From NCBI GenBank assembly GCA_963930775.1, contig OZ005699.1, forward strand, positions 7,833,501 to 7,897,500: a stretch of DNA of 64,000 nucleotides, given 5' to 3'. The stretch is from Cliona cf. orientalis. Taxonomy: Eukaryota > Porifera > Demospongiae > Clionaida > Clionaidae. The position numbers and the translations under genes were made by a program. Of this stretch, positions 34,201 through 53,948 are shown piece by piece (position 1 is the stretch's first letter; every line of letters begins with the position of its first letter). The notes beneath the pieces are model-generated. The model saw only the letters and a program-made list of their open reading frames with translations, was not told the origin of the DNA and searched no databases.

Positions 34201-34890
34201 GCAAGATTGAATCACTACAGAAAACTCCAGGTGAGGTAGATAATAGTTACAGTAGTTGCAGGATTCTCCATAGGAAAACTTCAAGGCAGAGTGGGTGGGC
34301 GTATAGTCTGGGCGGGATTTATGACCACATCAATTATTTTGTTAACCACATGAAAGAATATGTTCTAGACTATTGAAGGCATGGGGGGGGGGGCTATAGA
34401 CTGATTTGGAAGGGCCTGGGGAGAACATTGAGTTGTAATTATATGTAACATGTAAATACCATAGCCTTGATAATTAAAATTGATTGCCATAAGCCTATAG
34501 TGTTGGTGAAATAAGCTTTGCTAACTAAAATGTACTCACTCAGACACTGTTACAGTAACAGTCAGTTTTAAGTTGCATCATTTTTATATAGCTGATCAGG
34601 TGGAGGACAGCAAGCAAATGGCAATGCCTACCTTGCGTAATCTTTTTAAAGAGCTCTTTAAAGTGGCTAGCAATTGGGAGAATATAGGAGTTATGTTGGA
34701 TATTGATGAGGGCCCTTTGAAGAAGATAAAAGCTGACCACAAAGAAAGTGGAGACTGCTTAAGAGAGATGCTACGTGTCTGGCTGAAAAAGGTTGATCCT
34801 CCACCATCATGGAATCTTCTCATTGATGCTCTCAAATCTCTTGGAGAAGAGAAACTTGCTCAAGAACTAAATGAAAGGTACTGTGTATAA
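31218..34890 (+). CDS. Beta-propeller (kelch-like) and death-domain protein, 6 exons, 621 aa
   Basis: Exons: 31218-31265, 32519-33518, 33589-33739, 33784-33938, 34018-34230, 34592-34890; total 1,866 nt with all phases agreeing. Residues about 17-350 have kelch-like blades (RYDTSKDTWYAFHEHE, KLLLIGGV, GWIESPLL, DGDLLIIADG, LMVMIGGDALVMS). Residues about 355-450 resemble a shortened death domain (ELTRKPSWQNFIQVLKEIDL, GELAKQIEDFF). A helical linker follows, and residues about 524-621 are a clear death domain (FKELFKVASNWENIGVMLDI, CLREMLRVWLKK, SWNLLIDALKSLGEEKLAQE). Death domains are homotypic adaptors in cell-death and innate-immune signalling. There is no signal peptide, so a cytosolic protein. 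Exon 1 (MEGAVCPERNKPLAIE) is predicted by donor and phase only. The intron at 33740-33783 is just 44 nt. Confidence 0.8.
32009..32412. mobile_element. Pogo/Tigger-type MITE, 404 bp, in intron 1 of the propeller/death-domain gene
   Basis: The left end CAGTCCAACCTCGATTATCC and the inverted right end (reverse complement CAGTGCAACCTCGATTATCC) are near-perfect terminal repeats flanked by TA. The right end carries extra direct copies of GTTCGGATAATCGAG. CAGT...CTCGATTATCCGAA termini are typical of Tigger/pogo elements in many animals. No transposase is encoded. Confidence 0.85.
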
Positions 34891-35927: not shown

Positions 35928-36872
35928 ATGAGGCTGACGAATAATAAGATGTATCTGTTTATTTTAAATTTCGTTTCTCTATTTCTGACGATACTACTGC
36001 CAGTGCAATCAGCCAGTAATATGTCGGCATCGAATGGAAAAGAAAATTCAATGTCTGGTGTCTGCTTTTCTGAGGAAGAAAGAGAGATCATGATCCGTAA
36101 CATTACAGCAGATGTTCAAAGCATAATATTACAGAACCTTCCCTCTATTGAATTTATACTTAACTGTGGACCAGGTCATTGGTTTCTAGTGGCCCACCTC
36201 AACATGAGTGACTCTCGACAGCAGTGTCCATCCACCTGGAGGGAGTACAACACAGGTGGAATCAGGGCTTGTGGTAGACCAGCTACGTCAGAAGGCAGTT
36301 GTTCATCTTTACCTATACCGAGTTATCAATCGAAGTACAGCAGAGTGTGTGGGAGAGCTATTGGCTATCAGATTGGAAGTACAGATGCTTTTGGTTTTCG
36401 GGCAATTGGTCAACCACTTGACTCCTATTATGTCTACGGAGTCAGTATCACTCATGGAACACCTCGTAACCACATTTGGACCTATGCTGCTGGTATATCT
36501 GAGGGACGGTATAGTGACCAGCGAGATAACTGTCCATGTAGCAACCCTGGTCATCCTGATAATGCACTCCCTCCATCATTTGTTGGAGATAATTACTACT
36601 GCGAATCGGGAAATCCAGATAATACATTTAATTATGGGCACATTTATACCGAAGATCGACTCTGGGATGGCCAGCAGTGTGAGGGGCAGTGTTGCAGCAA
36701 TGGGAAATATCCTCCATGGTTCAGTGTGGAGCTAACAAACCCAACAACTGATGATATTGAGGTGCGCATTTGCAGTGGGGAGGGTAATATTAATCAAGAC
36801 GAGACTCTGGTACAGCTGCTGGAATCTATATCCAGTGACAAGCTCATGGCAAAGGATGAGATACTCTATTAA
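35928..36872 (+). CDS. Secreted Cys-rich family protein (member 2), intact, 314 aa
   Basis: Single-exon gene. The signal peptide is probably MYLFILNFVSLFLTILLPVQ from the Met at residue 8; the upstream Met at 35928 is in frame. Residues about 80-110 hold CGPGHWFLVAHLNMSDSRQQ and CPSTWREYNTGGIRACGRP. Then come YSRVCGRAIGYQIGSTDAF, YVYGVSITHGTPRNHIWTYA, NCPCSNPGHPDN, FVGDNYYCESGN, LWDGQQCEGQCCSNGKYPPW and PTTDDIEVRIC. The spaced Cys pairs suggest a compact disulfide-bonded extracellular domain. I know this pattern from sponge and cnidarian predicted proteins but no family name or function. It differs from members 1 and 3 in strand and in a longer C-terminal tail (SSDKLMAKDEILY). Confidence 0.88.
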   Translation: MRLTNNKMYLFILNFVSLFLTILLPVQSASNMSASNGKENSMSGVCFSEEEREIMIRNITADVQSIILQNLPSIEFILNCGPGHWFLVAHLNMSDSRQQCPSTWREYNTGGIRACGRPATSEGSCSSLPIPSYQSKYSRVCGRAIGYQIGSTDAFGFRAIGQPLDSYYVYGVSITHGTPRNHIWTYAAGISEGRYSDQRDNCPCSNPGHPDNALPPSFVGDNYYCESGNPDNTFNYGHIYTEDRLWDGQQCEGQCCSNGKYPPWFSVELTNPTTDDIEVRICSGEGNINQDETLVQLLESISSDKLMAKDEILY

Positions 36873-37520: not shown

Positions 37521-38453
37521 TTACTGGATGTATACCTCCAGCAATTGAATAATAGCATCCTGATAAGTGCGCTCCAGTGAGCAAATGCGTACCTCAATAT
37601 CATCAGTTGTTGGGTTTGTTAGCTCCACACTGAACCATGGAGGAGATTTACCATTGCTGCAACACTCACCTTCACACTGCTGGCCATCCCAGAGTGGATC
37701 AGTGTTGTATAGGAAATCATTCTTCCACCCGGTCCCATTGTTTCCAGACTCACAATAATAATTATCTCCAACAAACGATGGTATTGCCGAATTCATTTCA
37801 TTAGTAGGGTGAGCACAGGGGCAGTTGACAGATTTATCAAAGTAAGCTCCTTCGGTTAAACCCGCAGCATAGGTCCAGATGTGGTTACGAGGTGATCCAT
37901 GAGTGATACTGACTCCATAAACGTATGGTACATTCAGGTTTTGATTGTTCCACCTGTTAAGAAAGGCATCTGCACTCCCGTATTCGTAGCCAATCACTCT
38001 CCCACACACATTTCGATACATATCTCTACGGGGAGAGAAAAGGGTAGCTGAACAGCCTCCAGTTTGAGTATCACTGGATGGTCTACCACAGCCTCTAGTT
38101 CCATTGATATAAATCTCAGTCCATGCAGATGGACAGTGCTGTGCAGAATCGTTCATGTTTAGGGAGGCAATCCTCTTCCATTTTCCTTCTCCACACTCAG
38201 GGACCAACACAGGTATTCCAAGTTCTATCGCTTCTTGCACAAAGCTTGATATTGCACTGTCTATAGCACTTCTGATATTCGATTCATCTGCATTTTTCTC
38301 CTGAAGTACCTCAGGTCTTGTGGGACAAGAGTCTTCACCTGGCACTACTACTGGACGAAAGCTAGTCGTTGCTTGAACAATTTGAGTCCGGTGGTCCAGG
38401 AGTATTATAGGTACATTTAAAATGAGATAATAGCTGATGATGAAAGAAGGCAT
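37521..38453 (-). CDS. Secreted Cys-rich family protein (member 3), intact, 310 aa
   Basis: Single-exon gene from ATG at 38453 to TAA at 37523-37521. The hydrophobic start MPSFIISYYLILNVPIILL is a likely signal peptide. The core repeats the family plan: VPECGEGKWKRIASLNMND, CPSAWTE, RGCGRPSSDTQTGGCSATLF, VCGRVIGYEYGSADAF, GVSITHGSPRNHIWTYAAG, FVGDNYYCESGN, LWDGQQCEGECCSNGKSPPW and PTTDDIEVRICS. It is divergent (head to head, 1,055 bp) from receptor gene 1, and the pair was duplicated as a unit to give 43450-49033. Function unknown; the sequence indicates an extracellular disulfide-rich protein. Confidence 0.9.
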   Translation of the reverse strand: MPSFIISYYLILNVPIILLDHRTQIVQATTSFRPVVVPGEDSCPTRPEVLQEKNADESNIRSAIDSAISSFVQEAIELGIPVLVPECGEGKWKRIASLNMNDSAQHCPSAWTEIYINGTRGCGRPSSDTQTGGCSATLFSPRRDMYRNVCGRVIGYEYGSADAFLNRWNNQNLNVPYVYGVSITHGSPRNHIWTYAAGLTEGAYFDKSVNCPCAHPTNEMNSAIPSFVGDNYYCESGNNGTGWKNDFLYNTDPLWDGQQCEGECCSNGKSPPWFSVELTNPTTDDIEVRICSLERTYQDAIIQLLEVYIQ

Positions 38454-39508
38454 TATTGTTTATCTGAATATCTCATCAGCCAATCTTTAGTTTAGTCTTC
38501 ACAAAACTGATTGTTGGTGCACCCGCAGTTCAGAAACTCGTAGTAACCTATTTATGCTACATGAAATTGGAAATCTTGGAGCATTGCATGTGATATAGGT
38601 TTTCAATATTAAATTTTCATATTGGCTGGCAATATTATAGGTATAATAGTAACAAATAACTTATAGCTAACTTACGCAGATTGAGGACCAAAAACAATTA
38701 TTGACGTACCTCATCATTAATTGATGTAATAGATACTACGCGACAAAGGAAGTAATGACGCTAATAAATTTATCAATATGTCTTCGTTTCACTTTCATAC
38801 ACATTATAGTGAATAAGTTATAGCATACTAATTGCAAATCTATTGTCAGTGTGCTGTAAACAAAAAAATTAGACTAATAGTAGCATTATGATAGTTTCAT
38901 GGATCAGATGATGACTACATGTATAATAATTTTCCAATGTGCATAATTATGAGAATAAAAGATGGAATTGATATGAAAAATAGAGTTGAAAGTTTTCTAT
39001 ATAATATATCTACAGTGTTGCCACTGCATGCAATAGGTAGACCATGGCAGATAAACTGCAAAGTAGCTAATATTATTATAGCGGAGAGCAGGTCTAAGCT
39101 CGAGCACATAAGTATTATTATTATGCATAGGTTTCTGAAACAGTAACTTTCAGCTCAACATTGCATCTCATTATAGTATAGCAGGTATACTATGGGTTAC
39201 GTACTGCTTGCGATCTTGCCAAATGGGCAACCAGTGTTTACTTTCTGTGTGATGTATTATGGGAAATCAATTGAAATGTTGTTTTGACTTTCATTTCACA
39301 ACACTGCAGCAGCTGCAGCTAGTATAAGCCATATTATTATTGTTGCAGTATAATACATTGTATATATAATAGGGGAAAATATACATTAAATTGTCACTAT
39401 TTTCCCAATAATAACTGTATTGTCATAGTATAATTAATTTTTAGCTACGAGTTACTGAAATTCAATGATAGGTAGCTATATATCTTATGCCAGCTTTATA
39501 GTGCTATC
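38454..39508. promoter_or_regulatory. Divergent intergenic region, Cys-rich member 3 / receptor 1
   Basis: About 1.05 kb between two divergent start codons. Large parts reappear almost unchanged at 44366-45247 (for example TTTATCTGAATATCTCAT and TGGAAATCTTGGAGCATTGC). Conservation here reflects recent duplication and cannot by itself be taken as regulatory constraint. A shared promoter is plausible. Confidence 0.5.
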
Positions 39509-42500
39509 ATGGTGATGATGTTCACTGATTTTATCATTATTCTGCTGATTGCTCTAGCCAAAGTGCATTGCTATGAAAATAATACTTTTTGTGTGAAATC
39601 CAATGATTCTCAGCCGTGTGACTATGTCCAGTGTAAATCAGCAGTACACTGTGCTACTCTTGATATCTTTACGCAACCCAATAATAGTTCACGTTACTTC
39701 AAGTCTTTCACTCACTTTGTATTTCTACCAGGTTATCATAATCACGGTGACACCTTGATAGTGAGCAATTTGACGAATATGACTTTCACTGGTGTGATAC
39801 ATTCATCTCCTGTCATAGTCAGCTGTATAAAGAAAGATGTCGGATTTCAATTTTACAATTTCACTGGAGTAACTTTTGAGCACTTGATGATCACTAACTG
39901 TGGACAACTGTTTACACCCCATTATCCAGAAAAAAACTCACTTCCACAAACCACACGAGCGGCATTGATATTCGACATAGGCTCGGACATTACCTTCAAC
40001 AATATCACAATATCAAATTCTCCAACTCAAGGTTTTTATATCAACAGGGTGGAGGGACTGATAAATATTACATCTTCTACATTCCAGCATGCAGTTAATG
40101 AGAGTAGCGGTGAGAGTGACATCATAGCTGGAAATAGTATCTTTAGTGCAAATTGCAGCAACCCTGGACCTACAGCGCTTATAAAGAATTCCCTCTTTTT
40201 TAATAATTCAAACTTTGCTGATCCTAAGTGTTCAAGATTTGCCGCCGGACTAGTTATTGTCCTTAAATGTACCAACTTCGCGGTCACCGTTGATACAGTC
40301 ACATTTCGTAGAAACAAAGGATGTGAAGGTGGCAACTTAGCCCTAATTTTTTTTAACACCACTGAACCTTTCACAAAAAGCCTAGTGATTGTTAATAGCG
40401 TATTTCAGAACGGCTATGCTTTAATGGGTGCAGGAATATTTGTATCATTCGTAGAAGCAGCAGCGCAAGCCATCACACTCCCAAATTGTACACACAGTAA
40501 TTCAAAGGATGTCCTTAAAGTAACAAACACAAGGTTCATTGAAAACACGGCAAAACAATTCGGAGCAGGAGTCTATCTAAGATTCAAAAACTCCCTAACA
40601 TCTTGTGTCGACAGCTCAAGGATGTCATTCATCAATTGTACCTTTCAAGGGAATACCCAAATCAGCTATGGTGGGGTGGCAATACACAGTGTTAATTATG
40701 CTTCATTTCAGTATATTCAACAACTCTTTCCACAGTTTAATCTTTCAATTTTAGACTCAAAATTTCACGAGAATACTGTTGCTAATAACTATCATGGATC
40801 AGGCAGTGGAGTAATCTCAGTTAAGGATAACTATTGCGTCCACATTTCCGGTGTTGAGATCTTTGACAATACTGATTGCAGTGGACTGCTGGCAATTGGG
40901 AGCAATTTTGTCTTTTCAGGCGAAACACATATCCACCATAACAATGCCTCCAGTGGAGGTGGTGTACTCCTTTGTTCTAATGCAGTCATGTTTTTTCAGC
41001 CACATGCACACCTGATAATCACTGATAATCATGCAGTTCACACTGGTGGTGGAATTTGCGTCGAAGAGCGATGCATGTTATCTCTCCCAGTGTGTTTCTT
41101 CCAACTGGATCTCAATGCCACTTTAAATTTGTCCCTCATTAATACTATTCACATCACTATCGCTAACAACAGTGCTGAACATGCTGGTGACCAACTCTTT
41201 GGTGGATCAGTTGATTACTGCTACCTCATTGACTCTCCCTATCATGATCAAAAGACTAATCAAAGTCTGCCTGTGTACAGAAAAATTTTTCATATCTTAC
41301 CAAACTCCACATCTATGATATCATCTCCAGAAAGACAAGTTTGCATATGTGATAAGTCCAATAATAACACTGTAAACTGTACTCGTAGTTATGTGCTGCC
41401 CAGTGTTTACCCAGGGAAGACATTTCACTTTCAAGGTGTGTTGGTTGGACAATTGAACGGTACTCTACCTGGAACTGTCATGGCAAAGCTGGTGAACGCG
41501 GATGGCCAAAGGCTTGATCCAAGTGATACCGTGCAAGATGTTAACTCTTCAAGCTGTACTTTATTGAATTACACCATTATGACCTTCAAAGAAGACGCAA
41601 CTAATGTTACTTTAAAGCTTGAAACAAAGATAGTTGGAGATATGAGCTTTACTGATCGTCTTATGATCTTTGAACCCCTCTTGGTTAATATTTCCTTTAA
41701 GAACTGCCCTGTTGGCTTTTCGCTTAGTATGCAGTCAGGAAAATGTGAGTGTCTCTCGGCTCTCCAACCAATCGTAAGTTGTGATATTCAAAATATTTCT
41801 TTATCACTCAAAGACAACTGGATAGGATACAATCAGATATCAAGGAGAATTCTATATTTGTATGGATACAGCCTCGATTATTGCTATCCTAAAAGCACAG
41901 TAACCAATATTAGTGATTTTGATAGTCAAAATGAACAATGTAGGCACCACAGAATTGGTATTTTATGTGGTAAATGCCAAGAAGGGCACAGTGTGGTACT
42001 GGGATCTTCACAATGCAGAAATGATTGCAAACAGCACCACCTTTTGCTCATCCCAGTGTTTGGTCTGGCTGGTTTAATCTTGGTCGCAATCTTGATTGTA
42101 TTGAACATGACAGTAACAGTTGGAACTCTCAATGGCCTAATATTTTATGCCAATTTGGTTCAATTGAGCAACACACAATACTTTCAAGATGATAGCAAAA
42201 TTCCCAGTTTACCAATGGGTGTTCTGAAGGTATTCATAGCCTGGCTCAACTTAGACCTTGGTATTGAAACATGTCTGTACAAGGGAATGGATGACTACAC
42301 TAAGGCATGGCTGCAATTCATCTTTCCTATCTACATCTGGTTGATATTAGCTCTCATCGTCTATTTAAGCAGACGTTACAGTTTCGCTTCGACACTTATC
42401 GGCAATAATGGTGTAAAGGTCTTGGCAACACTCGTGCTACTTTCATACTCGAAGATGCTTCGGGCTGCAATCGCAACATCCCACATGAAGCTCATTCACC

Positions 42501-43273
42501 ACATACCAGTAGATGGTTCATATGATCATCGTCATTTATGCTGGATTTTCGACTGCAATATCCCTGGCTTTAGAGGTAAACATGTACCCCTATTCATTGC
42601 TGGCCTAATTGTTTCTCTGGTGCTAATACCCTTCACATTTGTACTGCTATTTATCAGACATCTCAATAAAATCTCAAATTGGCCGCTCTTTTGTTGGGTG
42701 TGGAAACTAAAACCACTTTTCGATGCCTACACTGGTCCATTCACGAATGAAGCGAGATGCTGGACTGGAGTACTGTGCTGTATGAGGCTAGTCTTGTTTG
42801 TCACTTCAACTGTAAGCTCAAGCGGACTTGCTAATCTTACAGTTGGGTTGTCAAACATTGCCACCATTTGTCTCTTATTTTTCGGATGGCTCGCCCACAC
42901 ACGCATCTACAAGAAGAAATGGCTCCAAATTCTGGAGAGCTCCTTTATGCTTAATCTTGGAGTACTGAGCATGGGAACACTCTTTTTTCGTTACGGTGGC
43001 TATGTTACCTTGTGCAATGCGCTGACTCATCTCCTGGTTGGCATGGCATTTATCATGTTCTTAGGGATTGTTGGATATCATGTACACACACAACTGAATG
43101 ATAATGTTACCAAGTTTTATCGATGCTCAAATTTTGTCAAAAGAATAATCACTAGGATCTGCATCTCTAAATCTGAGAATAATGCACTTGATGAGAGTGC
43201 AACCAGTGATGAAGGCATTGATGAACTTCTTCAAAATATTGAAAGGAGGCACCTTTTGCCGAAGGTATCTTAA
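39509..43273 (+). CDS. Large beta-helix / multi-TM receptor-like protein (receptor 1), 1,254 aa
   Basis: Intronless gene. A signal peptide (MVMMFTDFIIILLIALAKV) precedes an N-terminal Cys module with FVFLPGYHNH. Residues about 60-560 are N-glycosylation-rich repeats of parallel beta-helix type (LLAIGSNFVFSGETHIHHNN, ASSGGGVLLCSNAVMFF, HAVHTGGGICVEERC). A membrane-proximal Cys module follows (NCPVGFSLSMQSGKCECL, RIGILCGKCQEGHSVVLGSS). Residues about 845-1190 hold seven to nine hydrophobic segments with motifs YTKAWLQFIFPIYIWLIL, GNNGVKVLATLVLLSYSKML, GFRGKHVPLFIAGL and KPLFDAYTGPFTN. A cytosolic tail of about 60 residues ends ERRHLLPKVS. I recall similar unnamed proteins in sponges and cnidarians; ligand and signalling are unknown. 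Surface sensing or recognition is inferred from architecture. First gene of a three-gene array. Confidence 0.92.
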   Translation: MVMMFTDFIIILLIALAKVHCYENNTFCVKSNDSQPCDYVQCKSAVHCATLDIFTQPNNSSRYFKSFTHFVFLPGYHNHGDTLIVSNLTNMTFTGVIHSSPVIVSCIKKDVGFQFYNFTGVTFEHLMITNCGQLFTPHYPEKNSLPQTTRAALIFDIGSDITFNNITISNSPTQGFYINRVEGLINITSSTFQHAVNESSGESDIIAGNSIFSANCSNPGPTALIKNSLFFNNSNFADPKCSRFAAGLVIVLKCTNFAVTVDTVTFRRNKGCEGGNLALIFFNTTEPFTKSLVIVNSVFQNGYALMGAGIFVSFVEAAAQAITLPNCTHSNSKDVLKVTNTRFIENTAKQFGAGVYLRFKNSLTSCVDSSRMSFINCTFQGNTQISYGGVAIHSVNYASFQYIQQLFPQFNLSILDSKFHENTVANNYHGSGSGVISVKDNYCVHISGVEIFDNTDCSGLLAIGSNFVFSGETHIHHNNASSGGGVLLCSNAVMFFQPHAHLIITDNHAVHTGGGICVEERCMLSLPVCFFQLDLNATLNLSLINTIHITIANNSAEHAGDQLFGGSVDYCYLIDSPYHDQKTNQSLPVYRKIFHILPNSTSMISSPERQVCICDKSNNNTVNCTRSYVLPSVYPGKTFHFQGVLVGQLNGTLPGTVMAKLVNADGQRLDPSDTVQDVNSSSCTLLNYTIMTFKEDATNVTLKLETKIVGDMSFTDRLMIFEPLLVNISFKNCPVGFSLSMQSGKCECLSALQPIVSCDIQNISLSLKDNWIGYNQISRRILYLYGYSLDYCYPKSTVTNISDFDSQNEQCRHHRIGILCGKCQEGHSVVLGSSQCRNDCKQHHLLLIPVFGLAGLILVAILIVLNMTVTVGTLNGLIFYANLVQLSNTQYFQDDSKIPSLPMGVLKVFIAWLNLDLGIETCLYKGMDDYTKAWLQFIFPIYIWLILALIVYLSRRYSFASTLIGNNGVKVLATLVLLSYSKMLRAAIATSHMKLIHHIPVDGSYDHRHLCWIFDCNIPGFRGKHVPLFIAGLIVSLVLIPFTFVLLFIRHLNKISNWPLFCWVWKLKPLFDAYTGPFTNEARCWTGVLCCMRLVLFVTSTVSSSGLANLTVGLSNIATICLLFFGWLAHTRIYKKKWLQILESSFMLNLGVLSMGTLFFRYGGYVTLCNALTHLLVGMAFIMFLGIVGYHVHTQLNDNVTKFYRCSNFVKRIITRICISKSENNALDESATSDEGIDELLQNIERRHLLPKVS

Positions 43274-43274
43274 T

Positions 43275-43280
43275 AATAAA
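43275..43280 (+). terminator. AATAAA just after the receptor 1 stop
   Basis: AATAAA begins one base after the TAA stop (43271-43273). Receptors 2 and 3 do not keep it, so it may be fortuitous. Confidence 0.3.
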
Positions 43281-43429
43281 TAATATAATTTATAAACCCC
43301 TACACCGCAACCTTGAATTTTAATTTTCAGCATCAGTGAATAATATTAATATAGTCTAGCTTGATAATAATTATTATGTTTATCGTCAATGGCATTGTTA
43401 TGACATCATAATAAGGTGTTGTTACTACA

Positions 43430-44365
43430 ATCATGCGTAATATCATCAGTTGTTAGCTTGGGTAATACTATATTAAACCATAATATTATGAGATTTACCA
43501 TTGCTGCAACACTTGATCATCTTACCATTCCCGAGTGGATCAATATAATACAATTAAGTGACCAATAGCTGCATATAATATTATTGTTATAGTACATTGC
43601 CTTGATGTGTAACAAATCATTCTCCCACCTGATCTCTGGGTTGCCAGACTCACAATAATAATATCTCCAACAAACGATGGTACTACTGAATTCATTTCAT
43701 TAGTAGGGTGAACACAGGGGCAGTTGACAGATCAAAGTATAAACTTCTTCAGTTAAACCCACAGCATCTATAATAGGTCCAGATGTGGGCGATCCATGAG
43801 TGATACTGACTCCATAGACGTATGGTACATTCAGGTTTTGATTGTTCCACCTGTTAAGAAAAGCATCTGCACTCCCGTATTCGTAGCCGATCACTCTCCC
43901 ACACACATTTCGATACGTTTCTCTTCAGGGAGAGAAAAGGGTAGCTGAACAACCTCCAGTTTCAGTATCACTGGGTGGTCTACCACAGCCTCTAGTTTCA
44001 TTGATATTAATCTCAGTCCATGCAGATGGACAGTGTTGTATAGAATCCTTTATGTTTAGGGAGGCAATCCTCTTCCACTTTCGGGCCTTCTCCACACTCA
44101 GGGACCAACACAGGTATTACAAGTTCTATCGCTTCTTGCACAAAGCTTGATATATTGCGCTGTCTATAGCACTTCTGATACTCGATTCATCTGCATTTTT
44201 CTCCTGAAGTACCACAGGTCTTGTGGGACAAGAGTCTTCACAACCAGTCCCTGGCACTATTACTGGACGAAAGCTAGTCGTCGCTTGAACAATCTTAGTC
44301 TGGTGGTCCAGGAGTATTATAGGTACATTTAAAATGAGATAATAGCTGATGATGAAAGAAGGCAT
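43430..44365 (-). pseudogene. Cys-rich family pseudogene (member 4), duplicate of member 3
   Basis: Aligns along its whole length with member 3. The start (MPSFIISYYLILNVPIILL at 44365) and the middle (VCGRVIGYEYGSADAF, YVYGVSITHGSP near 43800-43900) are nearly identical. There are several frame changes and small indels: near 44150, near 44085 and 43925, within the NHIWTYAAG region near 43770, and a badly eroded 3' end at 43430-43560. Flanking non-coding DNA matches that of member 3. So it is a recently duplicated copy that decayed fast, while the neighbouring receptor copy stayed open. Confidence 0.88.
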
Positions 44366-45247
44366 TATTGTTTATCTGAATATCTCATAAGCCAATCTCA
44401 AGTTTAGTCTTCACAAAACTGATTGTTGGTACACACGCAGTTCAGAAACTCGTAGTAACCTATTTATGCTACATGAAATTGGAAATCTTGGAGCATTGCA
44501 TGTGATATAGATTTTCAATTTCATATTGGCTGGCAATATTATAGGTATAATAGTAACAAATAACTTATAGCTAACTTACGCAGATTGAGGACCAAAAACA
44601 ATTATTGACGTACCTCATCATTAATTGACGTAATAGATACTACGCGACAAAGGAAGCAATGACGCTAATAAATTTATCAGTATGTCTTCGTTTCACTTTC
44701 ATATACATTATAGTGAATAAGTTATAGCATACTAATTGCAAATCTATTGTCAGTGTGCTGTAAACAAAAAAAAAATTAGACTAATGGTTACTCACTATGA
44801 CAGTTTCATGGATCAGATGACAACTACAATATTGGGTTTGCCAACAAGCATAATAATCATCAGATTCTCATTATAGTATGGCAGGTACTATCACTAAGAT
44901 CTTGCCAAATGGACAACCAGTATTTACTTTCTGTGTGATGTATTATGGGAAATCGCCGATTAAAATGTTGCTATAACTTTCATTTAATTCACAACACTGC
45001 TGCAGCTAGAGTAAACGATAATATTATTATTATAGCTGCAGTATAATAGCTACAATGTATAATAATATTATATAATAGAGGAAAGTAGCCATTAAATTTT
45101 TAGCACATTAAACTGTCACTATTTTCCCAACAATAACTGTATTGTCGTATATAGTATGATTAATTTTTAGCTGCGAGTTACTGAATGATAGGTAGCTATA
45201 CATTGTCAAGCTTATGCCAGCTTTATTTTATAATATATAGTGCTATC
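44366..45247. promoter_or_regulatory. Divergent intergenic region, member 4 / receptor 2 (duplicate of 38454-39508)
   Basis: Very similar to the upstream region of receptor 1, with a few deletions, including loss of about 150 bp present around 38915-39140. It should carry the receptor 2 promoter. Confidence 0.5.
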
Positions 45248-48200
45248 ATGGTGATGATGCTCACTGATTTTATCATTATCCTGCTGATTGCTCTAGCCAA
45301 AGTGCATTGCTATGAAAGTAACACTTATTGTGTGAAATCGAATAATTCTCAGCCGTGTGACTCTGTCCAGTGTAAATCAGCGGTACACTGTGCTACACTT
45401 GATGTCTTTACGCAACCCAATAATAGTTCACGTTACTTCAAATCTTTCACTCGCTTTGTGTTTCTACCAGGTTATCACAATCACGGTGACACCTTGATAG
45501 TGAGCAACATGACGAATATGACCTTCACTGGAGTGACACATCCATCTCCTGTCGTAGTCAGCTGTACAAAGAAAAACGTCGGATTTCAATTTCACAATTT
45601 CATTGGAGTAACTTTTGAGCACTTGATGATCGCTAACTGTGGGCAGCCTTTTATACCCCATTATCCAGAAAAAAATTCACTTCCAAAAACCACGCGAGCA
45701 GCATTGATATTTGACATAGGCTCGGACATTACTTTGAACAATATCACAATATCAAATTCTCCAACTCAAGGTTTTTACATCAACAGGGTGGAGGGACTGA
45801 TAAGTATTACATCTTCTACATTCCAGCATGCAGTTAATGAGAGTAGCGGTGAGAGTGAAATCATAGCTGGAAATAGTATCTTTAGTGCAAATTGCAGTGA
45901 CCCTGGACCTAAGGCGTTTATAAAGGATTCCCTCTTTTTTAATAATTCAAACTTTGCTGAATCAGATCCTAAGTGTTCAAGATTTGCCGCTGGACTAGTT
46001 ATTGTCCTAAAATGCACCAATTTTGCGGTCACCCTCGATACAGTCACATTTGATAGCAACAAGGGATGTGCTGGTGGCAACTTGGCTCTAGTTTTCTTCA
46101 ACACCACTGAGCCTTTCACAGAAAGCCTAGTGATTGTTAATAGTGTATTTCAGAATGGCTATGCTTTAACTGGTGCGGGAATATTTGTATCATTTGTAGA
46201 AGCAGCAGCACAAACCATCACACTCCCAATTGCAAATTGTACACATAGTGTGATCAGTAATTCAAAGGATGTCCTTAAAGTAACAAACACAAGATTTATT
46301 GACAACAGGGCAAAACAGTTCGGAGCAGGAGTCCATCTAAGATTCAAAAACTCCCTAACATCTTGTGTCGATAGCTCAAGGATGTCATTTGTCAATTGTA
46401 CCTTTCAAGGGAATACCCAGATTGGCTATGGTGGAGTGGCAATACACAGTGTTAATTATGCTTCATTTCAGTATATTCAACAACTCTTTCCACAGTTTAA
46501 CCTTTCAATTTTAGACTCAAAATTCCACGAGAATACTGTTGCTAACAACTTTCATGGATCAGGCAGTGGAGTTATCTCAGTTAAGGATAACTATTGCGTC
46601 CACATTTCCGGTGTTGAGATCTTTGATAATACCGATTGCAGTGGACTGCTGGCAATTGGGAGCAATTTTGTCTTTTCAGGCGAAACAAATATCCACCATA
46701 ACAATGCCTCCAGTGGAGGTGGTGTACTCCTTTGTTCTAATGCAGTCATGTTTTTTCAGCCACATACACACCTGATAATCACTGATAATCATGCAGTTCA
46801 CACTGGTGGTGGAATTTGCGTAGAAGAGCGATGCATGATATCTCTCCCAGTGTGTTTCTTCCAACTGGATCTCAATGCCACTTTAAATTTGTCCCTCATT
46901 GATACTATTCACGTCACTATCGCTAACAACAGTGCTGAACATGCTGGTGACCAACTCTTTGGTGGATCAGTTGATTACTGCTACCTCATTGACTCTCCCT
47001 ATCATGATCGAAAGACTAATCAAAGTCTGCCTGTGTATAACAAAATATTTCACACTTCACCACACTCCACATCTATGGTATCATCTCCAGAAAGACAAGT
47101 TTGCATATGTGATAAGTCCAATAATAGCTCTATAAACTGTGTTCGTAGTTATGTGCTGCCCAGTATTTACCCAGGGAAGACTTTTCACTTCCAAGGTGTG
47201 TTGGTTGGACAACTGAAGGGTACTCTACCTGGAACTGTCATGGCAAAGCTGGTCAATGCGGATGGCCAAAGGCTTGATCCAAGTGATACCGTGCAAGATG
47301 TTAACTCTTCAAGCTGTACTTTATTGAATTACACCATTATGACCTTCAAAGAAGACGCAACTAATGTTACTCTAAAGCTTGAAACAAAGATAGTTGGAGA
47401 TATGAGCTTTACTGATCGTCTTGTGATCTTTGAACCCCTCTTGGTTAATATTTCCTTTAAGAACTGCCCTGTTGGCTTTTCGCTTAGTACGCAGTCAGGA
47501 AAATGTGAGTGTCTCTCAGTCCTCAAACCAATCGCAAGTTGTGATATTCAAAATATTTCTTTATCACTCAAAGACAACTGGATAGGATACGATCAGATAT
47601 CAAGGAGAATTCTATATTCGTATGGATACAGCCTCGACTATTGCTATCCAAAAAGCATAGTAACCAATATTAGTGATTTTGATAGTCAAAATGAACAATG
47701 TAGGCACCACAGAATTGGTATTTTGTGTGGTAAATGCCAAGAAGGGCACAGTGTGGTACTGGGATCTTCACAATGCAGAAATGATTGCAAACAGTACCAC
47801 CTTTTGCTCATCCCAGTGTTTGGTCTGGCTGGCTTAATCCTGGTCATAATCTTGATTGTATTGAACATGACAGTAACAGTTGGAACTCTCAATGGTCTAA
47901 TATTCTATGCCAATTTGGTTCAACTGAGCAACACTCAATACTTTCAAGATGATAGCAAAATTCCCACTTTGCTATCGGGTATTCTGAAGGTATTCATAGC
48001 CTGGCTCAACTTAGACCTCGGTATTGAAACATGTCTGTACAAGGGAATGGATGACTACACTAAGGCATGGCTGCAATTTGTCTTTCCTCTCTACATCTGG
48101 TTGATATTAGCTCTCATCGTCTATTTAAGCAGACGTTACAGTTTTGCTTCGACACTTATCGGCAATAACGGCGTAAAGGTCTTAGCAACGCTCGTGCTAC

Positions 48201-49033
48201 TTTCATATTCGAAGATGCTTCGGGCTGCAATCGCAACAGCCCACATAAAGTTCATTCACCACATACCAGTAGATGGTTCATACGATCATCGTCACATATG
48301 CTGGATTTTTGACTGCAATATCCCTGGCTTTAGAGGTAAACATGTACCCCTATTCATTGCTGGCCTAATTGTTTCTCTGGTGCTACTACCCTTCACATTT
48401 GTACTACTATTTATTAGACATCTCAATAAGATCTCAGATTGGCCGTTCTTTAGTTGGGTGTGGAGACTAAAACCACTTTTTGATGCCTACACTGGTCCAT
48501 TCACGAATGAAGCGAGATGCTGGACTGGAGTACTGTGCTTTATAAGGCTAGTCTTGTTTATCACTTCAACCGTTAGCTCAAGTGGACTTGCTAATCTTAC
48601 AGTTGGGTTGTCAAACATTGCCACCATTTGTCTCTTATTTTTTGGATGGCTCGCCCATACACGCATCTACAAGAACAAATGGCTCCACATTCTGGAGAGT
48701 TCCTTTATGCTTAATCTTGGAGCTTTGAGCATGGGAACACTCTTTTTGCGTTATGGTGGCTATGGTACCTTGTGCAATGCACTGACTCGTCTCTTGGTTG
48801 GCATGGCATTTATCATGTTCTTAGGGATTGTTGGATATCATATCCATACACAACTGAGTGATAATATTACCAAGTTTTGTCAATGCTCAAAATTTATCAA
48901 AAGAATGATCACTAGGATCTGCAAGTCTAAATCTGAGAATAATACACGTGATGACAGTGCAACCAGTGATGAAGGCATTGATGAACTTCTTCAAAATATT
49001 GAAAGGAGGCACCTTTTGCCGAAGGTATCATAA
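45248..49033 (+). CDS. Large beta-helix / multi-TM receptor-like protein (receptor 2), 1,261 aa
   Basis: Intronless, close paralog of receptor 1 over the whole length. I start at 45248 (MVMMLTDFIIILLIALAKV) because it matches the receptor 1 start. The frame is also open to an in-frame ATG at 45185, but the equivalent extension in receptor 1 contains a stop. The domain plan is the same: signal peptide, N-terminal Cys module, beta-helix ectodomain, membrane-proximal Cys module, multi-TM region, tail ERRHLLPKVS. Differences from receptor 1 include small in-frame insertions (an extra SD near ESDPKCSRF, and IANCTHSVISNS where receptor 1 has NCTHSNS) and scattered ectodomain substitutions. It forms a duplicated unit with the pseudogene at 43430-44365. 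Confidence 0.92.
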   Translation: MVMMLTDFIIILLIALAKVHCYESNTYCVKSNNSQPCDSVQCKSAVHCATLDVFTQPNNSSRYFKSFTRFVFLPGYHNHGDTLIVSNMTNMTFTGVTHPSPVVVSCTKKNVGFQFHNFIGVTFEHLMIANCGQPFIPHYPEKNSLPKTTRAALIFDIGSDITLNNITISNSPTQGFYINRVEGLISITSSTFQHAVNESSGESEIIAGNSIFSANCSDPGPKAFIKDSLFFNNSNFAESDPKCSRFAAGLVIVLKCTNFAVTLDTVTFDSNKGCAGGNLALVFFNTTEPFTESLVIVNSVFQNGYALTGAGIFVSFVEAAAQTITLPIANCTHSVISNSKDVLKVTNTRFIDNRAKQFGAGVHLRFKNSLTSCVDSSRMSFVNCTFQGNTQIGYGGVAIHSVNYASFQYIQQLFPQFNLSILDSKFHENTVANNFHGSGSGVISVKDNYCVHISGVEIFDNTDCSGLLAIGSNFVFSGETNIHHNNASSGGGVLLCSNAVMFFQPHTHLIITDNHAVHTGGGICVEERCMISLPVCFFQLDLNATLNLSLIDTIHVTIANNSAEHAGDQLFGGSVDYCYLIDSPYHDRKTNQSLPVYNKIFHTSPHSTSMVSSPERQVCICDKSNNSSINCVRSYVLPSIYPGKTFHFQGVLVGQLKGTLPGTVMAKLVNADGQRLDPSDTVQDVNSSSCTLLNYTIMTFKEDATNVTLKLETKIVGDMSFTDRLVIFEPLLVNISFKNCPVGFSLSTQSGKCECLSVLKPIASCDIQNISLSLKDNWIGYDQISRRILYSYGYSLDYCYPKSIVTNISDFDSQNEQCRHHRIGILCGKCQEGHSVVLGSSQCRNDCKQYHLLLIPVFGLAGLILVIILIVLNMTVTVGTLNGLIFYANLVQLSNTQYFQDDSKIPTLLSGILKVFIAWLNLDLGIETCLYKGMDDYTKAWLQFVFPLYIWLILALIVYLSRRYSFASTLIGNNGVKVLATLVLLSYSKMLRAAIATAHIKFIHHIPVDGSYDHRHICWIFDCNIPGFRGKHVPLFIAGLIVSLVLLPFTFVLLFIRHLNKISDWPFFSWVWRLKPLFDAYTGPFTNEARCWTGVLCFIRLVLFITSTVSSSGLANLTVGLSNIATICLLFFGWLAHTRIYKNKWLHILESSFMLNLGALSMGTLFLRYGGYGTLCNALTRLLVGMAFIMFLGIVGYHIHTQLSDNITKFCQCSKFIKRMITRICKSKSENNTRDDSATSDEGIDELLQNIERRHLLPKVS

Positions 49034-50117
49034 TAATGATATTGTTATAGTTTATAAACTGCTATGCCTCAGCCTTGGGGTTTCAGCATCAGTGAATAAT
49101 ATTAATAATAATAATAATAGTAGTCTAACTTGATAAAAAAATGATTGTTATGTTTATTGTCAATGGCATTATTATGATATTATCATAATAAGGTTGTTAT
49201 TACAATCATGTATTTATTATCATCAGAAGATTTACCATTGCTACAACACTTGATGATCGTATACCTTTCCAGAGTGGATCAGCAGAGTACAATTAAGTGA
49301 CCAGTAGCTGCATTGTGCCTTGTGAAATATATTAAATTATTCTCCCTCATTTAATTGACATAATAGATACTACGCAGCAAGGGAAGCAATGATACTAATA
49401 ACGTTATCAGTATGTCTTTGTTTCACTTTCATACACATTATCATAATATTATTATTGCCAGACGACTGTGCTGTAAACAAGAAAAAAGTATTACTCTATA
49501 TAATCATTACTCACTGTGAACATTTCGGATGACAACCAAGATGGCTTGTATATAAGGGCGCGTGATTATTAGCTGTTAGCTAGCTATTAATACGTGCAGG
49601 TGCTATAATCTGAAGGTGATTCAATGACATTCTCTCCCGTGGGGTCCGGTTTGCCAACATGTATAATATTATAGCTGTTAATACACATGCATGAACTCAG
49701 AGCTGCTCTCCATGTATACTTTATTCTACCTCACATACTCTCTTATTGTGACATATTATCAGTACTTAGAGTCACACAATTTATTCATAGCTGGTTTACC
49801 TAAAGTATGCACTTTTATTGCAAAAACTTTCAACTCTATTTTTCATAACAAGTTCAAGTTTTATTCCCATAAATATGCACTATACAGCTCATTAATATAT
49901 TATGGAATACCACAGTTGTTTCTTCATTAGAGTAATAATACGTGTTGGGAAATCTGGCACATTTATGGCTGTCAAAACACTCACAGTTGACTATTGGGAG
50001 AAACTGCCACCTTACTATGTTGACTTCTATTGCTCAGTGATAATATTGATTTTTTTTATTGAGTACACATACAACAGCTGTGAGAGGCTGTGAGAGGCAG
50101 TCCAGATTCTCCACGAA
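49034..50117. other. Intergenic region between receptors 2 and 3, with Cys-rich relic
   Basis: Holds a Cys-rich relic (49215-49340) and a fragment matching the upstream region of member 3 (about 49350-49445, TGTCTTTGTTTCACTTTCAT). Otherwise AT-rich. Two short open frames (49691-49930 and 49902-50093) lack homology to anything I know and I do not call them genes. Confidence 0.6.
49215..49340 (-). pseudogene. Cys-rich gene relic downstream of receptor 2
   Basis: GATTTACCATTGCTACAACACTTGATGATCG and CAGAGTGGATCAGCAGAGTA match positions 43490-43560 of pseudogene member 4 and the CCSNGK / DPLWDG region of intact members. Only this 3' piece survives. Confidence 0.7.
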
Positions 50118-53100
50118 ATGGCACTCACTAGTACTTTCATATTGTTACTTCTAGCAGAAGTGAGCCATTTTCCTAAGAGCTGTGAATTCGAAGCTGTTTA
50201 TTGTGTAGTTTCAATGAGAAATGATTCACGGCAGTGTGATAGCACTGTTCAATGTAAAACTGCAAAGGAGTGTGACACCCTGGATTATTTTACTCAAAAT
50301 GCTTCAAGATATCTTCAGCCACACTCTCGTTTCTTGTTTCTACCTGGCTACCATGAGCACCGTCGAAAAGTGATAGTGAATGGAATAAATGATATGAAAT
50401 TCAGTGGTTTGACTGAAGATTCAAGGCAATCTGTCATCGACTGTACAGTGAAAAATGTTGGCTTTCTATTCCATAATTTCAGTAGAATAGTCTTTGAAAA
50501 CTTGACTATCACCAACTGTGGGCAGATCTTTGTACCTCATTACTCTGAAAATTCAGATAAGAAAATTACTCGATCTGCAGCACTGGCATTCGACATAGGA
50601 GCAACTCTCACCCTTAACAACTTGAACGTGACCAACCCTCAGAGTCAAGGATTTTACATCAACCAAGTAGAACGAGAAATATCAATCTTATATTCTATGT
50701 TTCAGCATGCATCGAGTAGAGGCCAAAAAGGCGAGAAAATTGTAGCTGGAAATAGTATCTTTAGTGCAGACTGTAGTCTCCCCATGCCAATGGCTTATAT
50801 TTACAAGTCACACTTCATCAATAATTCGAATATAGATGATAGCTATCTCCCTACAGTCTCAAATGGTCAACGAAAATGTTCTAGGTTTGCTTCCGGATTG
50901 TTGATTGTGCTAAAATGTACCAATTTTGCCGTCACTCTTGATGAAGTAACATTTGATGGCAATAAAGGCTGTGAAGGGGGTAATTTAATCATTATTTTCT
51001 TCAATATTTCGAAACCTTTTACTGCGAGTTTGGCTATAAGCAACAGTCTATTTCAAAATGGCTATGCAGCCTTTGGTGGAGGGATCCTTGTATCATTAGT
51101 TGAAGCCGTGAATTTCAAAAACTTAACAGGTTTTCAATTGAAACAGTGTGGCTACAACGAAACAGAACTGAGAGATATACTGAAAATAACCAATACAAGC
51201 TTTATTAATAACACAGCACATGGTTTTGGTGGGGGAATTTCACTAAGACTCAAGAACTCTTTAACCTCTTGTGCTGATAGTTTAAAGATATCAATTAATA
51301 ACTGCACATTTCGAGGGAATTCTATCAGCCAATCAGGCTACGGAGGTGTTGCAGTACACATTGTAAATTATCTTACATTTCAGTACATAAGGCAGCTATT
51401 ACCCCAGTTTGAGCTCTCAATAACAGATTCTATTTTCTATGAAAATCGTGCAGTTAACAAGTATACTGGATCGGGTAGTGGGGTAATTTCAGTAAAAGAT
51501 GGCAACCATGTGAATATTTCCAATGTTGAAATTTATGATAATACAGATTGTAGTGGACTGCTGGCAATTGGGAGTATTTTAGTCTTCACCGGAAAAATCA
51601 ACATTCATCATAACAATGCATCTAGTGGAGGGGGCATACTCCTGTGCTCCAATGCGATCATGTACCTACAACCTTATGCACAATTAATAATCACCAACAA
51701 CCGTGCATATCACACAGGTGGAGGCATATGTGTTGAAGAAAGATGTCTAGTATCACTACCGGAATGTTTCTATCAACTAGGTTTTGATGCTACAATAGAA
51801 CTTTCACTCATAAGCTCCATAAACATCACCCTTGCTGATAATGCCGCAGAGTATGCAGGTCATCAATTATTCGGTGGGTCAGTGGATTACTGCTACCTAA
51901 TCGATCCCCCCTATCATAATCGGACAACCAACTCAAGCAAGGAAGTGTACGATGAAGTATTTCACATTTCACCCAATGTTTCATCTGCTGTCACTTCTCC
52001 AGAACGACAAGTATGCATGTGCAGGGAAACCAGTGTGGACTGTTCTCTGAGTCGTAATCTTACAATGCCACCAGTATACCCCGGTGAAATGTTTCAGATT
52101 CAAGCAGTATTAGTCGGACAATTAAATGGTATTCTTCCTGGAACTGTGCTGGCCAAACTAATAGACGAAACAGATGACCAATGCCTCAATCACACCAACT
52201 ATGCACAAAACATAAACTCATTATACTGCTCTAATTTGAGCTATACCATCATGACCACAAAGTTATCAAATGAAGCAACCTTAAAACTTGAAGCAGAATT
52301 TGATGGAGATGCTAGTTTTGCTGATCGACTTGATCTCTTTACACCACTGTTCCTCACCGTGCCATTTAAGAGTTGCCCTGTTGGCTTTTCATTAAGCAAT
52401 CGAGGAAAGTGCGAATGTCTCCCAATCCTGCTCCCAAGTGTACATTGTGAAATTCAAAGCAATTCATTATCGCTCACTAAGGATAACTGGATTGGATACG
52501 ACCAAAGCTCAAATAGGATTTTGTACTCGTATGGATACAGTTTGGACTACTGCTATCCCAATGCCACAGTAGTCAATATTAATGATTCTCATAGTCAAAA
52601 TGCACAATGTAGACACAAAAGACGCGGTATTTTATGTGGTAAATGCCAAGAAGATCACAGTGTAGTGCTGGGATCTTCACAATGCAGAAATGATTGCAAA
52701 CAGTACCACCTTTTGCTCATCCCAGTGTTTGGTCTGGCTGGCTTAATCCTGGTCGTAATCTTGATTGTATTGAACATGACAGTAACTGTTGGAACTCTCA
52801 ATGGCCTAATATTCTATGCCAATTTGGTTCAATTGAGCAACACACAATACTTTCAAGATGAAAGCAAAATTCCCAGTTCAATAACGAGTGTTCTGAAGGT
52901 ATTCATAGCCTGGCTCAACTTAGACCTTGGTATTGAAACATGTCTGTACAAGGGAATGGATGACTACACTAAAGCATGGCTGCAATTCATCTTTCCTCTC
53001 TACATCTGGTTGATATTAGCACTCATTGTCTATTTGAGCAGACGTTACAGTTTTGCCTCGACACTTATCGGCAATAACGGTGTAAAGGTCTTAGCAACGC

Positions 53101-53948
53101 TCGTGCTACTTTCATATTCGAAGATGCTTCGGGCTGCAATCGCAACAGCCCACATGAAGTTTATTTACCACATACCAGTAGATGGTTCATACAATCATCG
53201 TCATTTATGCTGGATTTTTGACTGCAATATCCCTGGCTTTAGAGGTAAACATGTACCCCTATTCATTGCTGGCCTAATTGTTTCTCTGGTGCTACTACCC
53301 TTCACATTTGTACTACTATTTATCAGACATCTCAATAAGATCTCAGATTGGCCGTTCTTTTGTTGGGTGTGGAGACTAAAACCACTTTTTGATGCCTACA
53401 CTGGTCCATTCACGAATGAAGCGAGATGCTGGACTGGAGTACTGTGCTTTGTAAGGCTAGTCTTGTTTATCACTTCAACCGTAAGTTCAAGCGGACTTGT
53501 TAATCTTACAGTTGGGTTGTCAAACATTGCCACTATTTGTCTCTTGTTTTTCGGATGGCTCACCCGTACACGCATCTACAAGAAGAAATGGCTCCACATT
53601 CTGGAGAGCTCCTTTATGCTTAATCTTGGAGCTTTGAGCATGGGAACACTCTTTTTGCGTTATGGTGGCTATATTAAGTCGTGCAATGCACTGACTCATC
53701 TCCTGGTTGGCATGGCATTTATCATGTTCTTAGGGATTATTGGGTATCATATCCGCACACAATTGAATGATAATGTTACCAAGTTTTTTCAGTGCTCAAA
53801 ATTTGTCAAAAGAATGATAGCGAGGATCTGCCGTTCTAAGGCGGAGAATACTGTATGTGATGAGAGTGCAACCAGTGATGAAGGCATTGATGAACTTTTT
53901 CAAAACATTGATTCAGAAAGGAGGCACCTTTTGCCAAAGGTATCTTAA
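50118..53948 (+). CDS. Large beta-helix / multi-TM receptor-like protein (receptor 3), 1,276 aa
   Basis: Intronless. Signal peptide MALTSTFILLLLAEVSHFP, unlike those of receptors 1 and 2. The ectodomain follows the same plan but is clearly diverged (FLFLPGYHEHRRKVIVNGIN, LLAIGSILVFTGKINIHHNN), with extra residues in several loops. From about residue 835 (GKCQEDHSVVLGSSQCRNDC) onward, the membrane region and tail are almost identical to receptors 1 and 2, even at DNA level. The tail has a small SE insertion (IDSERRHLLPKVS) and keeps the ERRHLL motif. The abrupt change in similarity points to gene conversion of the 3' third. Role unknown; a receptor or sensor by architecture. Confidence 0.92.
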   Translation: MALTSTFILLLLAEVSHFPKSCEFEAVYCVVSMRNDSRQCDSTVQCKTAKECDTLDYFTQNASRYLQPHSRFLFLPGYHEHRRKVIVNGINDMKFSGLTEDSRQSVIDCTVKNVGFLFHNFSRIVFENLTITNCGQIFVPHYSENSDKKITRSAALAFDIGATLTLNNLNVTNPQSQGFYINQVEREISILYSMFQHASSRGQKGEKIVAGNSIFSADCSLPMPMAYIYKSHFINNSNIDDSYLPTVSNGQRKCSRFASGLLIVLKCTNFAVTLDEVTFDGNKGCEGGNLIIIFFNISKPFTASLAISNSLFQNGYAAFGGGILVSLVEAVNFKNLTGFQLKQCGYNETELRDILKITNTSFINNTAHGFGGGISLRLKNSLTSCADSLKISINNCTFRGNSISQSGYGGVAVHIVNYLTFQYIRQLLPQFELSITDSIFYENRAVNKYTGSGSGVISVKDGNHVNISNVEIYDNTDCSGLLAIGSILVFTGKINIHHNNASSGGGILLCSNAIMYLQPYAQLIITNNRAYHTGGGICVEERCLVSLPECFYQLGFDATIELSLISSINITLADNAAEYAGHQLFGGSVDYCYLIDPPYHNRTTNSSKEVYDEVFHISPNVSSAVTSPERQVCMCRETSVDCSLSRNLTMPPVYPGEMFQIQAVLVGQLNGILPGTVLAKLIDETDDQCLNHTNYAQNINSLYCSNLSYTIMTTKLSNEATLKLEAEFDGDASFADRLDLFTPLFLTVPFKSCPVGFSLSNRGKCECLPILLPSVHCEIQSNSLSLTKDNWIGYDQSSNRILYSYGYSLDYCYPNATVVNINDSHSQNAQCRHKRRGILCGKCQEDHSVVLGSSQCRNDCKQYHLLLIPVFGLAGLILVVILIVLNMTVTVGTLNGLIFYANLVQLSNTQYFQDESKIPSSITSVLKVFIAWLNLDLGIETCLYKGMDDYTKAWLQFIFPLYIWLILALIVYLSRRYSFASTLIGNNGVKVLATLVLLSYSKMLRAAIATAHMKFIYHIPVDGSYNHRHLCWIFDCNIPGFRGKHVPLFIAGLIVSLVLLPFTFVLLFIRHLNKISDWPFFCWVWRLKPLFDAYTGPFTNEARCWTGVLCFVRLVLFITSTVSSSGLVNLTVGLSNIATICLLFFGWLTRTRIYKKKWLHILESSFMLNLGALSMGTLFLRYGGYIKSCNALTHLLVGMAFIMFLGIIGYHIRTQLNDNVTKFFQCSKFVKRMIARICRSKAENTVCDESATSDEGIDELFQNIDSERRHLLPKVS

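Follow-up and report, generated by a model that had tools for sequence, protein, structure and literature searches.

Three intronless beta-helix membrane proteins of a Cliona sponge: possible glycan-recognition receptors with a membrane half best read as gene-converted

The window considered here is a stretch of 64,000 nucleotides, without any N, from the sponge Cliona cf. orientalis (contig OZ005699.1, positions 7,833,501 to 7,897,500; C11:7833501-7897500 in the searched genome of 216.8 Mb and 149 contigs), so the sponge origin assumed in the initial annotation is correct. For the assembly odCliOrie1.1, the published description gives a span of 217.17 Mb in 307 scaffolds (PMC12639293). The window carries three genes on the plus strand, R1, R2, and R3, which encode large proteins with a predicted beta-helix ectodomain, a membrane half, and a short tail, and which are referred to here as receptors. 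Secreted-type genes of a cysteine (Cys)-rich family lie beside them. The receptor genes are:

39509..43273, plus strand: R1, a single exon of 1,254 amino acids, with a tail ending in ERRHLLPKVS.
45248..49033, plus strand: R2, a single exon of 1,261 amino acids, 92% identical to R1.
50118..53948, plus strand: R3, a single exon of 1,276 amino acids, compared to R1 and R2 61% identical in the ectodomain and 90–91% identical in the membrane half.

The initial annotation of this DNA had described three intronless receptor genes of about 1,250–1,276 codons, and single-exon open reading frames (ORFs) of 1,254, 1,261, and 1,276 codons are indeed found. An alternative start of R2 at an upstream ATG (45185) would give 1,282 codons. 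The proposed combination of a beta-helix with several transmembrane segments also holds, with the structure model giving the beta-helix and hydropathy giving the bundle and the short tail. In R1, a signal-like hydrophobic N-terminus is followed by the beta-helix ectodomain (from about residue 22 to about 565–607), a beta-rich linker and a Cys-rich neck (to about residue 840), a hydrophobic bundle (residues 847–1189), and the tail. According to the predicted structure and the fold search, the ectodomain is a right-handed parallel beta-helix, a solenoid of parallel strands with repeated rungs. It is also predicted to be glycosylated, as had been suggested, since the ectodomains of R1, R2, and R3 have 31, 26, and 23 N-glycosylation sequons, respectively, above the shuffled expectation (means of 11.6, 11.3, and 10.5).

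Nine hydrophobic blocks are observed between R1 residues 847 and 1189 by family-averaged hydropathy, with overlapping blocks merged by eye. The block at residues 899–923 is weak (1.3) and the structure model has just a 13-residue helix there, so the helix count is honestly seven to nine. The best reading of the modelled bundle would be nine segments, with the N-terminus outside and the C-terminus inside. In this orientation, two inner loops and the tail are rich in lysine and arginine (K/R values of 5.6, 2.4, and 5.5), while one inner loop is K/R-poor (1.3), another is uncounted, and one outer loop has a value of 3.8. Beta-helix matches fill the results of the fold search, which contain no match to the bundle; this absence is therefore uninformative on the bundle fold.

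The tail is predicted to face the cytosol. In a cytosolic tail, the sequence [DE]xxxL[LI] is an acidic-dileucine endolysosomal sorting motif. The tails of R1, R2, and R3 all carry ERRHLL, which matches this strict form, and the strict form is present in 12 of 27 sampled tails (2.7 in shuffled tails). The motif EPL[LI] is found within the last 15 residues of 20 of these tails (shuffle 0.13), and ExL[LI] in 21 of them (shuffle 1.7). The sample consists of the tails of those of 38 ORFs that contain the motif region; among the 11 ORFs outside it, L045 has EPLL, L056 has ETLL, and L060 has EVLI. By analogy with the known motif, the receptor tail could act as an endolysosomal sorting signal.

The principal finding in the cluster concerns the synonymous divergence (dS). 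Between R1 and R2 there is no step, and dS is 0.14–0.15 in the ectodomain and the membrane half alike. R3 compared to R1 and R2 shows a saturated dS of ~2 over ~830 ectodomain codons and a dS of 0.14–0.16 over the membrane half, which defines one further feature:

52626..53948, plus strand: putatively homogenised tract of R3, across which dS to R1 and R2 drops from ~2 to 0.14–0.16; it starts within the Cys-rich neck, shortly ahead of the first hydrophobic block, and ends at the stop codon.

The same pattern is seen in codon usage at identical residues. R1 and R3 use the same codon at 216 of 445 such residues in the ectodomain and at 332 of 364 in the membrane half, and R1 and R2 do so at 634 of 696 and 335 of 369, respectively. 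A change-point model with hand-set identity rates places the junction at R3 codon 836, at ~52,626, in the last Cys-rich motif; its log-likelihood is 211 units better than that of a single old segment and 1,009 units better than that of a single young one. Past the stop codon, R3 retains only weak similarity to the 3' flanks of R1 and R2, with local scores of 47 for R1–R3 (shuffle maximum 27) and 32 for R2–R3 (shuffle maximum 28), compared to 171 for R1–R2. The sharp step at ~52,626 and the fall in similarity past the stop codon together delimit a bounded tract, which is best read as gene conversion homogenising the membrane half between R1/R2 and R3. Protein constraint alone was rejected as an explanation of the alike membrane halves, because their synonymous sites are alike too. 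The "fixed signalling parts" of the initial annotation are therefore retained as an alike membrane half, but not as a matter of protein conservation only. If the conversion reading is correct, the step would show plainly how conversion within a gene can hold one module uniform and produce a likeness that could be taken, wrongly, for protein constraint.

A step of this kind could also result from cassette exchange, in which an ectodomain was imported into a young duplicate and the membrane half was not converted. This explanation is unlikely, and it is kept as a rival because a stretch upstream of R3, near 49334-49530, is also young. Within this longer local alignment (~49334-49530), positions 49345-49441 are 86–88% identical to the two units of the segmental duplication that carries R1 and R2, and the old segment thus looks like an island. 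On the other hand, no closer donor of the R3 ectodomain was found among 12 other full-length receptors (R1/R2 61%, next 38%), and the weak similarity of the R3 3' flank to R1 and R2 is expected of a tract bounded on both sides.

In other receptor clusters, dS is 1.1 to 2.6 times lower in the membrane half in eight of nine measurable pairs, which share members. The array neighbours on contigs C4 and C10 (L071/L073; L043, L061, and L068) have a membrane-half dS 1.7 to 2.6 times below the ectodomain dS. Judging from these sequences, perhaps the same homogenisation has acted on the C4 and C10 arrays in a milder form.

R1 to R3 belong to a large family. A genome search with R1 gave 39 rows from the best 37 of 1,802 first-look candidates; 36 of the 39 are without an internal stop, and the open frames have 989–1,357 codons. 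A codon pattern for the DAYTGP motif of the receptors matched 87 times, compared to 2 matches in a reversed control. Both the receptor family and the Cys-rich family exceed chance and form tandem arrays on many chromosomes, and the counts of family members are lower bounds where only the best candidates were scored. Dense receptor arrays (L064-L074) are located at C10:1.50-1.56 Mb and C4:8.59-8.61 Mb. The longest frame is shorter than 1,100 codons in 9 of the 11 stretches of these arrays (stretch ends approximate), so birth-and-death turnover is likely. Also, two more distant receptor ORFs, L045 (507-3416, minus strand) and L051 (553-3468, minus strand), lie beside the receptors at C11:5.22 and C11:3.58 Mb, which means that neighbouring receptors are not always close paralogues.

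The ratio of nonsynonymous (dN) to synonymous divergence, omega, is 0.13–0.32 among R1, R2, and R3 when calculated by half, and 0.26–0.42 in ten overlapping close paralogue pairs. These values point to purifying selection overall and give no proof of diversifying selection. Windows with dN above dS occur near codons 181–270 in four of five C10 pairs, with 2–4 synonymous changes each and shared members; others are scattered, including six in L041/L059, and one of 13 R1/R2 windows has an omega of 1.17. These short windows are not claimed as a selection signal. The recognition-type role that had been suggested for the cluster fits, but R1 to R3 and the close pairs compared do not show the diversifying selection that an arms race would produce overall.

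Taken together, R1, R2, and R3 may belong to a large family of endocytic glycan-recognition receptors in the sponge, with a membrane half converted between R1/R2 and R3. We hold this reading tentatively, with somewhat less than even confidence. In the proposed scheme, the array of intronless membrane protein genes would have grown by tandem duplication, and each protein would be built from an N-terminal beta-helix, a Cys-rich neck, seven to nine hydrophobic segments, and a short dileucine-type tail (ERRHLL in R1–R3, EPL[LI] in most sampled paralogues). The beta-helix would act as a non-cleaving binder of polysaccharides or glycoconjugates from microbes, algae, or food particles, and the receptor with its cargo would be routed to endolysosomes by the tail. 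Gene conversion would have unified the membrane half between R1/R2 and R3, while the ectodomains stayed old, separate lineages. A family of this kind would help the sponge to discriminate among particles and symbionts. A wider form of the proposal is rather doubtful: ~100 or more germline glycan-recognition receptors, each with a tailspike-like beta-helix, a nine-helix anchor, and an endolysosomal tail, might distinguish symbionts, microbial or algal, from food, and conversion would hold the membrane module uniform as the ectodomains age independently of one another.

Several observations weigh against glycan-recognition receptors with a converted membrane half. A modelled beta-helix fold is by itself no proof of sugar binding. 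The support for nine helices is partial, considering the weak block (1.3), the 13-residue helix, the uncounted inner loop, and the outer loop with a K/R value of 3.8. The bundle is seen only within the whole-protein model and may also be that of a channel or transporter. The idea of sorting draws on a known motif, the strict form of which is present in only 12 of 27 tails; L035, L054, and the broken frame L067 have neither form of the tail motif, and the sampled tails are drawn from related arrays, so the motif counts are non-independent. As for conversion, the sharp step is found in the R1–R3 cluster only, the pair L042/L057 shows the opposite trend (ectodomain dS 0.31, membrane-half dS 0.56), and two further pairs are saturated. 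Finally, some short windows have dN above dS.

Among the functional alternatives, the one that survives best is a chemosensory or signalling receptor, or a ligand-gated channel, in which the bundle is the effector, the beta-helix the sensor, and the tail motif incidental to trafficking. We consider it unlikely, though a serious candidate. Chemoreceptors are typically encoded by large, tandemly arrayed families without introns. The membrane bundle is also somewhat more conserved than the ectodomain, with identities of R1 to ten paralogues from other clusters of 33–49% and 24–39%, respectively, and a gap of only 0–4 points in four of the ten. On the other hand, the Pfam matches of 25 receptor members include neither the 7tm family nor any other receptor or channel family, and a sequence search of solved structures (PDB) gave chance-level matches only, including one to a channel (E 0.07). 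A polysaccharide lyase or hydrolase anchored in the membrane and exposed to the water canals is improbable. Many of the top fold matches of the ectodomain model are lyases, epimerases, and glycosidases. Beta-helix polysaccharide enzymes are expected to have particular residue sets at their catalytic sites. Among the acidic and basic residues inside the helix, only H77 and D569 are kept in at least 12 of the 13 full-length members, in a comparison made without superposing catalytic sites.

The Cys-rich genes around the receptors, and the segmental duplication that includes them, are as follows:

37521..38453, minus strand: intact secreted-type Cys-rich gene of 310 amino acids, divergent from R1.
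35928..36872, plus strand: second intact Cys-rich gene, of 314 amino acids, convergent with the gene at 37521..38453.
43439..44365, minus strand: decayed Cys-rich copy in the R1–R2 interval, with in-frame stops; part of the duplicated unit.
49046..49441, minus strand: scar of a Cys-rich gene including its upstream region, in the R2–R3 interval, in two short stretches (49046-49313 and 49345-49441).
37703..43574, no strand assigned: segmental duplication unit 1 (Cys-rich gene and R1), from BLAST of unit 1 against the window.
43603..49313, no strand assigned: segmental duplication unit 2 (Cys-rich pseudogene and R2), from the same comparison.

Units 1 and 2 are the product of a single ~5.9 kb duplication, with 90–91% identity across two long alignments, in agreement with the tandem duplication noted earlier. 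The repeated unit of a minus-strand Cys-rich gene and a plus-strand receptor gene is only partly present. There is a single intact divergent pair; elsewhere one copy is decayed, another is reduced to a scar, and a third is absent. The copy at 44365-43439 (minus strand) is a pseudogene with five in-frame stops in the scored match, and tblastn with two protein queries of the Cys-rich family (E 1e-3) detected no copy downstream of R3. Another copy of the Cys-rich family at 27260-28151 (minus strand) is split across two frames and is therefore probably disrupted or intron-containing. Since units 1 and 2 derive from one segmental duplication, they are not independent evidence of a pairing between receptors and Cys-rich genes.

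Genome-wide, three divergent Cys-rich queries gave 128, 134, and 143 match rows, and a Cys-rich motif matched 207 times, compared to 0 in the control. The three query searches and 13 of 100 listed motif places (207 in all) were merged at 900 bp into 365 distinct loci, pseudogenes included, after rows repeating or fragmenting a locus had been dropped by hand. This number equals 1.4% of the 25,502 annotated genes given in the assembly description (PMC12639293). Very large Cys-rich arrays are located at C2:0.3-1.14 Mb, C5:9.19-9.29 Mb, C18:1.6-1.9 Mb, C7:3.58-3.68 Mb, and C11:5.6-6.9 Mb. The receptor list for the linkage test consists of 106 loci (87 motif places and 19 R1-search places, merged at 1.5 kb, with L045 and L051 left out). 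Distances were measured between the receptor motif or gene midpoint and the start of the Cys-rich locus, with Cys-rich pseudogenes counted and both lists incomplete. The initial annotation had paired the two families, and the linkage test in this same genome does not support the pairing. A Cys-rich locus lies within 10 kb of 3 of the 106 receptors, compared to 2.5 expected from circular shifts (P 0.40). All three are in the window, and elsewhere the count is 0 of 103 (2.3 expected). Within 50 kb, 10 of 106 are linked compared to 6.3 expected (P 0.21). With smaller lists, in which 37 receptors remain from 39 rows after removal of two second pieces of a locus, 3 of 37 are linked within 12 kb compared to 0.74 expected (P 0.08), all in the window. 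Also, no Cys-rich match was found when 30 query frames were compared by tblastn with ten receptor loci and with the 3.5 kb flanks (eight in total) of four loci; the longest frames served as queries, which include some fragments and, for L009, a frame other than the Cys-rich one.

With chance-level linkage, empty flanks, and a decayed second copy, a fixed unit of receptor and Cys-rich gene was rejected. The pairing in the window is read here as a local accident that was then duplicated, and the Cys-rich genes as an independent family, larger still than that of the receptors, which adjoins them by chance. An immune or allorecognition unit in which each receptor binds, as its ligand, the secreted Cys-rich protein encoded beside it is highly improbable: the intact divergent pair, the duplicated second unit, and the smaller linkage test lean towards it, but the larger lists and the flanks do not, the Cys-rich gene of unit 2 is broken while R2 is intact, and overall diversifying selection is absent. 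More generally, apparent gene pairing in duplicated arrays needs to be judged against how densely the two families populate the genome.

The model of the Cys-rich protein has a predicted local distance difference test score (pLDDT) of 60.7, and its weak fold matches to Eph ligand-binding domains, meprins, Bt Cry proteins, and L-type lectins are within the noise range of the tool. Meprins bear a MAM domain. The protein may be a jelly-roll beta-sandwich. Pfam searches with 23 members gave no well-fitting family, with one member matching Furin-like_2 (E 0.038) and one CPW_WPC (E 0.044), and a single chance-level match was obtained in each of two PDB sequence searches. Elsewhere in the window, a Kelch-repeat ORF (32576-33553; Kelch_2, E 9e-6) precedes a Death-domain ORF (34618-34890; E 2.7e-7) with the same orientation, and the two (32576-34890) are perhaps one gene or two neighbours. 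A 357-codon ORF at 58082-59155 (plus strand) has one central hydrophobic stretch and several Cys residues in its C-terminal half, and matches no Pfam family above the cut-off.

No description of the receptor family was found in the topical literature covered, which leaves out most subscription papers, nor in the available parts of PMC5041008 and PMC12909245. The family appears uncharacterised. The idea of a recognition role persists in a more specific form: the proteins are plausibly glycan receptors, possibly sorted through their tails. How a filter feeder without antibodies discriminates symbionts from food is an open question, for which this family is a concrete, testable candidate, combining many ectodomains of a fold that in other proteins handles polysaccharides of bacteria and algae with a common membrane half and a sorting-type tail.

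By comparison with known systems, the receptors share lineage expansion with tandem immune families of invertebrates, such as sponge NLR and SRCR and sea urchin SpTransformer. Gene conversion has reportedly been observed in SpTransformer. The domains of these families are unrelated to those of the sponge receptors, which are known here from sequence alone; the lineage expansion of SpTransformer is described in PMC8634487. Chlamydia Pmp-type repeats (Chlam_PMP, PF02415) are matched in 9 of 25 receptor members and DUF7630 (PF24633) in 7 of 25, with E up to 0.01, and the matches of R1 to DUF7630 and of R3 to Chlam_PMP are both below the curated cut-offs. Bacterial Pmps are autotransporters, unlike the multi-pass sponge proteins. 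Polysaccharide lyases, epimerases, and glycosidases (RbmB, AlgE, PL6, and GH110) have a right-handed parallel beta-helix like that of the sponge ectodomain. The identity in these matches is 9–15%, the sponge protein adds a multi-helix membrane bundle, and H77 and D569 apart, no catalytic-type acidic or basic residues are seen to be conserved within the helix across its full-length paralogues. In pattern-based scans, one of each, no relative of the receptors was confirmed among 107 and 49 pattern matches in viral contigs or among 22 in prokaryote genomes. The beta-helix fold and a similar span are also found in the receptor-binding domains of phage tailspikes (Pam1, Sf6, and P22). Tailspikes are trimeric viral fibre proteins, unlike the sponge membrane proteins, and they recognise surface polysaccharide, in parallel to the role proposed here for the sponge ectodomain.

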